Assembly: GCF_003346775.1 (NCBI RefSeq)
Contig: NZ_CP031219.1
Span: forward strand, 1,488,001-1,552,000
Length of the DNA: 64,000 bases
Source: Malaciobacter mytili LMG 24559
GTDB taxonomy: Bacteria; Campylobacterota; Campylobacteria; Campylobacterales; Arcobacteraceae
Direction of reading: 5' to 3'
Shown one piece after another: positions 8,074 to 13,385 of the stretch (position 1 is the first letter of the stretch; every line of letters begins with the position of its first letter). The notes below the pieces were generated by a model. It was not told where the DNA came from, ran no database searches, and was given only the letters and a program-made list of their open reading frames with translations. The translations under genes were made by a program, and so were the position numbers.

Positions 8074-8113
8074 TATATATCCTTAAAATTAATTGGGTTT
8101 TAAATAAATTTTA

Positions 8114-8181
8114 AGTAGCTTAACACAGACACTTTTTTGTGTTTTGAGGGGAGCAACGGCCAAGTATCCCCCTCTGCTACT
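8114..8181 (-). promoter_or_regulatory. Putative structured RNA leader (three-way junction) upstream of putA
   Basis: Unusually GC-rich for this genome. On the minus strand a closing stem GTAGC/GCTAC (8180-8176 with 8119-8115) encloses two hairpins: GAGGGG/CCCCTC (8174-8169 with 8151-8146, 17-nt loop containing CTTGGCCGTTGC) and AACACA/TGTGTT (8143-8138 with 8127-8122). No T-run follows, so it is not a normal terminator. It lies between the livF stop and the putA SD, about 42 nt before the start codon. No known riboswitch consensus was recognised. Confidence 0.5.
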
Positions 8182-8203: not shown

Positions 8204-8920
8204 TTAATGCTTTTTTCCTAAATATGCTTCTTGAATTGCTTCTGAGTTTAGTAACTCTAAAGATGTACCTTCATGGGTAATTTTTCCTACTTCAAGAACA
8301 TAACCTCTATTTGCTAACTTTAATGCTGCTTTAGCATTTTGTTCAACAATTAAAACCGTAACCCCACTTTGAGCAATTTCTTTAACTGCTTTAAAAATTG
8401 ATTTAACTAAAATAGGAGCTAGTCCTAAACTTGGTTCATCTAAAATAAGTAATTTTGGTTTACTCATAATAGCTCTACCAATTGCTAACATTTGTTGTTC
8501 ACCACCACTTAAAGTTCCAGCTAATTGTTTTCTTCTTTCTTTTAGTCTTGGTAAAATATCATATATCCACGCCAAAGTCTCCTTATCATGGTGTTTTAAA
8601 GTATATGCACCCATCATTAAATTTTCTTCAACACTAAGTGTTCCAAAAACTCTTCTTCCTTCTGGTGAGTGAGACATTCCTAAACTAACAATATCATGTG
8701 CAGGAGTATTTGTAATATCATTTTTATCAAAAATAATATTTCCAGACTTAGCTTTTAATAATCCAGAAAGTGTTTGTAAAGTTGTAGTTTTTCCTGCTCC
8801 ATTTGCACCTAAAATAGTTACAACTTCACCTTTAAAAACTTTTAACGAGATGCCTTTTATAGCTGTAATTGCTCCATAATTTACATGTAAATCTCTAACC
8901 TCTAATAAAATCTCTTGCAT
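8204..8920 (-). CDS. livF: Branched-chain amino acid ABC transporter ATP-binding protein LivF
   Basis: About 238 aa. Walker A GANGAGKTT, Q-loop region, signature LSGGEQQMLAIGRA and Walker B LLILDEPSLGL are all present. The SPEGRRVFGTLSVEENL stretch is typical of LivF. ATG at 8920 overlaps the livG stop (TGATG); an in-frame GTG one codon earlier is possible. It is one of two cytoplasmic ATPases energising the LivHM permease. Last gene of the liv operon, followed by the putA leader. Confidence 0.93.
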   Translation of the reverse strand: MQEILLEVRDLHVNYGAITAIKGISLKVFKGEVVTILGANGAGKTTTLQTLSGLLKAKSGNIIFDKNDITNTPAHDIVSLGMSHSPEGRRVFGTLSVEENLMMGAYTLKHHDKETLAWIYDILPRLKERRKQLAGTLSGGEQQMLAIGRAIMSKPKLLILDEPSLGLAPILVKSIFKAVKEIAQSGVTVLIVEQNAKAALKLANRGYVLEVGKITHEGTSLELLNSEAIQEAYLGKKH

Positions 8921-9699
8921 CACACTTCATCCTCTTCATCATCACTTCCTATATAAGCTTCAACTACTCTTGGATCATCTTGAACAAAACTTGGAACACC
9001 TTGAGAAATCTCTTTTCCAAAGTTAATAACAGTGATATAATCAGTTAATTTCATAACCATATCCATATCATGTTCAATCATCATAATTCCAAGACCCATC
9101 TCTTTTATCTTTAAGATTATATTTGTAAGCTCTATAGTTTCATTTTCATTAAGACCTGCTGCTGGCTCATCTAAAATTAATAATTCAGGATCGGCTGCAA
9201 GTGCCCTTGCCATTTCAACTTTTCTTTGATTACCATATGATAAATCACCTGTTGGAGTCATAGCAAACTTTGTAAGATTAAAAAACTCCATAAGTTCTTC
9301 AACTCTTTTCCAATATTTATTTTCATCTTTTTTATAAAAAGGTGTATGTAAAATTGAGTGATACCATTTTTGTTGTGATTTAGTATGGCAACCAGCCATA
9401 ATATTCTCTGCAACACTCATCTCTTTAAATAATCTAATATTTTGAAATGTTCTTAAAACACCCTTTTGAGCTATTTTATGAGGAGACATTCCAGTAATAT
9501 CTTCACCTTTATATTTAATAGTTCCTTTTTCTGGTCTATAAATACCTGTAACACAGTTAAATAGTGTAGTTTTTCCCGCTCCATTTGGACCAATAATTCC
9601 ATAAATTTGTCCAGGTTTTACTTTTATTGTTAAATCATCAATTGCTACAAGTCCATAGAAAAACTTAGAAACATTTTCTATTTCTAATACATATTTCAT
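8920..9699 (-). CDS. livG: Branched-chain amino acid ABC transporter ATP-binding protein LivG
   Basis: 259 aa. Walker A GPNGAGKTT, the LivG-type signature LSYGNQRKVEMARALA, Walker B LLILDEPAAGLN and the switch IEHDMDMVM are in order. RTFQNIRLFKEMSVAENIMAG is characteristic of LivG. It ends in an acidic tail DDEEDEV. It overlaps livM by 4 nt (ATGA) and livF by one base. Cytoplasmic partner of LivF in the HAAT-family importer. Confidence 0.93.
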   Translation of the reverse strand: MKYVLEIENVSKFFYGLVAIDDLTIKVKPGQIYGIIGPNGAGKTTLFNCVTGIYRPEKGTIKYKGEDITGMSPHKIAQKGVLRTFQNIRLFKEMSVAENIMAGCHTKSQQKWYHSILHTPFYKKDENKYWKRVEELMEFFNLTKFAMTPTGDLSYGNQRKVEMARALAADPELLILDEPAAGLNENETIELTNIILKIKEMGLGIMMIEHDMDMVMKLTDYITVINFGKEISQGVPSFVQDDPRVVEAYIGSDDEEDEV

Positions 9700-12707: not shown

Positions 12708-13385
12708 TTATTCTCCTTTATTTAAATTAAAAGTTGGTTCTATAATATAACAACCAACTGCCCATTCACCTATATTTGGTATGATATTTATATCTCCTCC
12801 TTTAAATTTAGATTTCAAATTTTCAAATGAATTTACTATTTTATCAAAAGATTCAATAATCTCTTGAATTCTTTGTTCACTTTTTTTTCTAGCACTATTT
12901 GATATATCTAAATAAAAAGCAAAGATACCATAATCTAAAGTTGAATCAGATGGTTTTTCTCTCTCAATCATTTTACACATCTTTTCAATTTCAGATTTAT
13001 ACTCCTCTTTAACATTTCTAACACCATTTTTTATGCTCATAATTACTCTTGAAATAGAATCATTATCACTTTTATGTGGAAATCTCTCATCTAAAGTAAG
13101 ACACAAAGTATCTTGTGTTAAATATTTTTGTTTCATAAAATCTCTAAAGGCATCCCTTGAAGGCAATGAACATCTTAAAATATCTGCAACTGTTGCATCA
13201 ATAAAAAGTTCAGGTGCATTTTCAAGTTTTGCAATTTCTTGAGAAATATGTATTGTTAAAAACTTAGGTGGCGCATAAGATAAATATAGTTCATCCGCAG
13301 TCCAAAAAGTAAAGTTATTTTTTGCAGTTATAATACCTTTAATAACAGAGTTTACAATCTCTTCTTGAGTAGGAAAGTTAGTCAT
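12708..13385 (-). CDS. Unknown 225-aa protein between RHH regulator and livJ/K
   Basis: Not recognised. 225 aa, soluble, no signal or membrane helix; the middle and C-terminal parts are strongly helical (SEIEKMCKMIEREK, RIQEIIESFDKIVNSFENLKSKF), suggesting a coiled coil. ATG overlaps the stop of the RHH gene by 8 nt and has a strong SD (GGAGGAG). The C-terminal codons supply the SD for the binding-protein gene. Gene order RHH-unknown resembles a toxin-antitoxin pair, but no nuclease or kinase motif is visible, and the tight link to livJ suggests a role in controlling or sensing for the transporter. Function open. Confidence 0.75.
   Translation of the reverse strand: MTNFPTQEEIVNSVIKGIITAKNNFTFWTADELYLSYAPPKFLTIHISQEIAKLENAPELFIDATVADILRCSLPSRDAFRDFMKQKYLTQDTLCLTLDERFPHKSDNDSISRVIMSIKNGVRNVKEEYKSEIEKMCKMIEREKPSDSTLDYGIFAFYLDISNSARKKSEQRIQEIIESFDKIVNSFENLKSKFKGGDINIIPNIGEWAVGCYIIEPTFNLNKGE

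Follow-up and report, generated by a model that had tools for sequence, protein, structure and literature searches.

The livF-putA intergenic gap and its junction RNA

The intergenic gap between livF, upstream, and putA, downstream, holds a three-way-junction RNA built from three exact 6-bp stems, P1, P2 and P3 (Table 1). Positions refer to the window, the whole 64,000-nt stretch of Malaciobacter mytili LMG 24559 DNA that was analysed. The RNA sense is the minus strand, shared with livF and putA, so that the element is read from 8181 to 8114. Pro_dh and Aldedh are the only Pfam domains in PutA.

The 68-mer folds with a minimum free energy (MFE) of -23.2 kcal/mol (z = -3.4), and none of 200 dinucleotide shuffles is equally stable. 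Its GC content is 47%, against 25.5% in the window, and only 0.08% of the window's 68-nt stretches are as GC-rich. The opposite strand folds with a similar z, making folding energy alone insufficient to pick the strand; in the homologue alignment, the sense strand contains 16 G.U cells versus 8 A.C cells, as expected if the minus strand is the RNA. The original prediction, made from the letters of the sequence, described the locus accurately: three exact stems arranged as a junction within 68 nt, GC-rich in AT-rich DNA, on the coding strand between livF and putA, with no T-run behind them.

The lack of a U-run after the junction hairpins at this locus argues against an intrinsic terminator or attenuator. 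None of 4227 Rfam families matches the window at its gathering cutoff, and an Rfam scan of three members yields only sub-threshold chance matches. The element shows neither a tRNA-like fold nor a T-box covariance match, which speaks against a tRNA or T-box leader.

Table 1. Features of the putA leader and its flanks, in window coordinates
Feature	Position	Strand	Remarks
Three-way-junction leader RNA, P1-P2-P3	8114..8181	-	z -3.4; kept before putA in Arcobacteraceae, with compensatory changes
P1 5' strand, AGUAGC	8176..8181	-	P1 paired in 94% of cells, 28 homologues
P1 3' strand, GCUACU	8114..8119	-	Last two bases (8115-8114) common to the SD-sequestering arm
P2 5' strand, GAGGGG	8169..8174	-	Changes on both sides in 4/6 P2 pairs (homologues)
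P2 3' strand, CCCCUC	8146..8151	-	Fold and homologue alignment
P2 apex ACUUGGCCGU, consensus ACYUGSCNGU	8156..8165	-	Presumed recognition element
P3 5' strand, AACACA	8138..8143	-	Covariation in all five modelled P3 pairs
P3 3' strand, UGUGUU	8122..8127	-	Fold and homologue alignment
Anti-SD arm, CUUAAAAUU	8107..8115	-	Overlaps foot of P1
SD arm, AAUUUUAAGG	8081..8090	-	Complementary to anti-SD arm CUUAAAAUU
putA Shine-Dalgarno (SD), AAGGA	8080..8084	-	6 nt before ATG; spacing to P1 conserved
putA, bifunctional proline dehydrogenase / glutamate-semialdehyde dehydrogenase, 1192 aa	4495..8073	-	Pfam
livF, upstream neighbour, end of liv-type ABC transporter operon	8204..8923	-	

Conservation, covariation and distribution

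A DNA search of 41 genomes recovers clear homologues in G002, G003, G007 and G014, and a pattern search adds G052. A first covariance model (R1), built from six sequences, matches at E<=1 in 36 of 104 Arcobacteraceae genomes, and the 30 match loci that were inspected all sit immediately before putA. Rebuilding the model with a hexaloop P2 apex (R2) leaves the match set nearly the same. putA itself is present in 50 of the 104 genomes, and the leaders of these comprise 28 with an intact apex and about five decayed elements. No match below E 0.01 occurs in those of the 104 genomes that are without putA. Beyond the family, R2 yields only chance-level matches (E 0.04-0.1) across 399 genomes of the order. 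Pattern matches in 83 stretches of genome contigs and four viral contigs are mostly chance, the true members (L067, L070, L086, L105) all being Arcobacteraceae-like. The covariance search of Campylobacterota putA leaders proposed with the original prediction is thus positive within Arcobacteraceae and at chance level outside; the junction RNA was found only in this family and is not general to Campylobacterota.

In an alignment of 28 related sequences that was fitted to the structure model, 91.5% of cells are paired and 11 of 20 pairs change on both sides. Cells with such double changes number 56, compared with 17.6 in shuffles, and none of 500 shuffles reaches the observed count; when the alignment is slid as a control, pairing collapses from 91.5% to at most 49%. 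An independent MAFFT alignment (A8, 11 sequences) agrees, with six pairs, 16 cells and 0/500 shuffles for cells. The junction structure is under selection, and the existence of homologues with compensatory changes confirms that the RNA before putA is real and more than a chance fold. Absence from other putA leaders and a lack of compensatory changes, the two outcomes on which the original prediction was to be abandoned, are both contradicted by these 28 intact leaders and 11 doubly changed pairs.

Conservation concentrates in the P2 apex, ACUUGGCNGU, which is nearly invariant across homologues and bears out the conserved-looking loop of the original prediction. Positions 1, 2, 4, 5, 7 and 9 (A, C, U, G, C, G) are invariant in 30 homologues and three further positions nearly so, giving the consensus A-C-Y-U-G-S-C-N-G-U, a hexaloop YUGSCN closed by AC/GU pairs. 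The loop of the source genome, CTTGGCCGTTGC, spans the conserved apex ACTTGGC[C]GTT; at the eighth apex position this genome is the exception, having C in place of the G found in most relatives. The letters of the P2 stem, P3 and inner P2 loop drift among homologues: P3 sequence is exchanged freely, with all five pairs covarying, and in one clade (G001, G004, G005) P3 is a plain longer helix. Because the apex is conserved while these other letters drift, the P2 apex, held in the junction, is likely the recognition element.

Two other models of the loops were set aside. In R1 the P2 apex was a GGC/GCU pairing around a 4-nt loop, which the wider alignment replaces with the AC/GU-closed hexaloop, and an L2-L3 kissing pseudoknot was dropped because the P3 loop and L2 do not covary. 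The loop contains UGG, the proline anticodon, and two homologues carry UGC instead. The 3' side of P3 often has two overlapping copies that can pair to a single 5' strand (for example CAG...CUG.A.CUG; window 8122-8143 and homologues), which suggests a possible register shift.

In the decayed elements (G018, G023, G050, G089, G108) the apex is gone and P1, P3 or the SD hairpin remains. P3 in several of the decayed loci (L061, L065, L062, L156, L157) is a perfect hairpin without a bulge, as if sensor loss had relaxed it. Seven putA leaders without the RNA (L228-L232, L235 and L236, in G101, G107, G106, G105, G100, G019 and G115) share a dyad near the start codon, for example GGTAGTACTTTTTGTATTACT, perhaps an operator replacing RNA control.

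A probable regulon of proline-forming and proline-degrading genes

The element stays with putA in G124, where the neighbour is not livF, so the RNA tracks putA and not livF. A second full copy precedes a ctlX-ornithine cyclodeaminase (ocd)-arginase operon in G010 and G117 (R1 E 7e-6 and 2e-5). Both CtlX and OCD score above the cutoff of an NCBIfam equivalog; arginase is assigned by Pfam and seen after ctlX-ocd where the retrieved sequence reaches far enough. Two further arrangements, each known from one genome, have a hairpin with the same apex but without the junction. In G109 it lies before a cis-3-hydroxy-L-proline dehydratase gene (NCBIfam equivalog at 601.9 bits against a cutoff of 500), and in G118 before an operon for an EamA transporter and a proline-racemase-family protein. 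The association of the element is with proline metabolism and not with liv.

In six genomes picked after the matches were known, 30 loci of the apex-type 10-mer were inspected from 47 listed sites; seven are non-coding, all in proline-pathway leaders, and 23 lie in reading frames. Given how the genomes were picked, a p-value for the non-coding loci carries no weight. A wider family scan finds nine non-coding loci among 63 distinct apex sites inspected: three before putA, two before hydroxyproline operons, three in phage-like hairpins and one in an rplK-rplA spacer. The phage-like and rplK-rplA sites mean that the apex alone is not perfectly specific.

The three phage-like or mobile-element-like loci form stable hairpins with ACTTGGCGG in the loop (L302 879 in G064; L303, minus strand, 1187 in G080; L305, minus strand, 1439 in G022) and are possibly rolling-circle nick-site hairpins or a coincidence. 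The liv operon upstream of putA begins with a gene for a 225-aa protein that matches nothing in Pfam or NCBIfam (window 12708-13385, minus strand). G010 encodes a similar protein (L153 7634-8275) immediately before its second RNA copy and ctlX-ocd operon.

Arginine, citrulline, ornithine and the hydroxyprolines all feed into L-proline, and PutA oxidises L-proline. L-proline is the compound common to all members of the regulon. A cis-regulatory RNA for proline catabolism, with a regulon that reaches other proline-forming pathways, is well supported, and the RNA shows one general trait of riboswitches, that of a structured leader conserved in cis with genes of related metabolism. Where the original prediction offered a riboswitch for proline catabolism, the cis-regulatory part is upheld by conservation, covariation and the regulon, and direct ligand binding is a step that we infer.

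Proposed translational control and its likely signal

The distance from P1 to the SD is almost constant at about 40 nt (39-41 nt in nearly all homologues). Immediately 3' of P1, the putA SD is covered by an AU-rich hairpin whose 5' arm has bases in common with the P1 foot. In most homologues the sequence after P1 pairs back onto the SD, many of them individually beating 98-99% of shuffles. Where the two helices compete, as they do in several homologues but not in all, forcing full P1 in ViennaRNA ensembles raises SD accessibility (L054, 0.18 to 0.87; L056, 0.18 to 0.86; L057, 0.46 to 0.75). For many homologues the MFE structure already contains full P1 and leaves the SD mostly open, which means that a switch is not apparent in every case.

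The RNA before putA is probably a switch for the use of proline that has not been described before. With about even confidence, it would act in cis on translation, in the leaders of putA and of a small proline regulon in Arcobacteraceae, most likely as an L-proline riboswitch that exposes the SD. L-proline is named as the most likely signal because it is shared by all the controlled pathways. The signal would bind at the P2 apex or the junction and stabilise full-length P1; the SD hairpin would then lose its foot, exposing the ribosome site and allowing putA to be translated. Without signal, the SD hairpin would win and translation would be low, which would make the RNA a translational ON switch. 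The ON direction is the one we infer, and the opposite sign is also compatible. More tentatively, the RNA may represent a natural riboswitch class with about 10 conserved nucleotides that senses L-proline, or a hydroxyproline or P5C relative, and coordinates arginine/ornithine, hydroxyproline and proline catabolism in Arcobacteraceae. Two features of the regulon count against the riboswitch reading: the hairpin-only members in G109 and G118, and the same sign of control that would apply to proline-making genes (ocd, hydroxyproline dehydratases) and to the proline-consuming gene. If the RNA binds proline, it would bring one more amino acid to the natural RNA sensors, and a compact hairpin aptamer.

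Alternatively, though with lower probability, the P2 hairpin might be the site for a proline-status-responsive RNA-binding protein controlling the translation or stability of the regulon mRNAs, the junction merely presenting the hairpin. Strict sequence conservation covers only about 10 nt, at the P2 apex, which is little for a pocket that binds a small molecule and usual for a hairpin read by a protein; the centring of this conservation on the hexaloop and AC/GU closing pairs, with stem letters free, suits a protein, as do the hairpin-only versions before the cis-3-hydroxyproline dehydratase and the EamA operon. A three-way junction whose P1 and P3 covary is retained by almost all putA leaders and by both ocd leaders. 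This exceeds what a bare hairpin needs, and for this reason direct sensing of proline or a close relative is rated somewhat likelier than the protein. The loop also differs from ANTAR (A1, G4 hexaloop) and CsrA (GGA) motifs. ANTAR targets consist of two tandem hexaloop hairpins with A1 and G4. P2 resembles them in using a hexaloop hairpin as recognition element, a works-like analogy only, and departs from them in having U or C at position 1 of YUGSCN, a single hairpin plus junction, and a P3 loop that varies in length and sequence. If a protein reads the P2 hairpin, Campylobacterota would have a regulator that acts on amino-acid catabolism post-transcriptionally, a kind of control about which little is known in this phylum.

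The original prediction also raised an RNA thermometer or a processed element between operons; a thermometer, or a plain intercistronic stability or processing element between the liv operon and putA, is improbable. An AU-rich SD hairpin and a position between two same-strand genes are what such elements might show, but no specific support emerged for a thermometer, which needs neither a conserved P2 loop nor P3 covariation. The element stays with putA and not with livF, and it is found again ahead of other genes of the proline pathways; both facts count against either reading, and against processing in particular.

Hfq-independent sRNA control is known in Campylobacterota, and the P2 loop is exposed, conserved and GC-rich, as a target of a trans-acting sRNA might be. 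However, the loop variant of the source genome, ACTTGGCCGT, is present a single time when both strands are counted, and that site is the element itself; the same holds for the variant ACCTGGCAGT in G014. Because the variants appear nowhere else in their own genomes, a trans RNA with full loop complementarity is unlikely, and sRNA pairing is very improbable overall. Just as improbable is that the inverted repeats are DNA operators for a transcription factor, a role open to the GGTAGTACTTTTTGTATTACT dyad of RNA-less leaders, since P2 and P3 change letters yet keep pairing and the loop alone is conserved, the opposite of an operator, and the spacing to the SD is fixed.

As a candidate L-proline switch, the putA-leader RNA resembles SAM-II and preQ1-II, translational SD-sequestering riboswitches, in being a structured leader just before the start codon, in its metabolically coherent regulon, and in an aptamer-side helix that shares bases with the anti-SD arm. 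It differs in having no Rfam match and a conserved core consisting of one hairpin apex rather than a multi-strand pocket. The proX motif (SRC-29-1) is a candidate riboswitch leader with RBS occlusion, tied to proline betaine/glycine betaine transport (PMC8632094). It comes from Spiribacter and saltwater samples, precedes an osmolyte transporter, and is not reported in Arcobacteraceae or with putA (PMC8632094), which sets it apart by description from the putA-leader RNA.

In the literature searched, which stops short of a 2019 supplement with unnamed Arcobacter candidates, neither an earlier description of the element nor a "proline riboswitch" was found. Motifs for proline or ornithine are absent from those named in the main text of Stav et al. 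2019, and later surveys by that group name no putA motif. In the 2019 study, GC-rich intergenic regions of Arcobacter sp. L were analysed and most Arcobacter-confined motifs were left unnamed (PMC6429828); the putA-leader RNA could be among these unnamed candidates.
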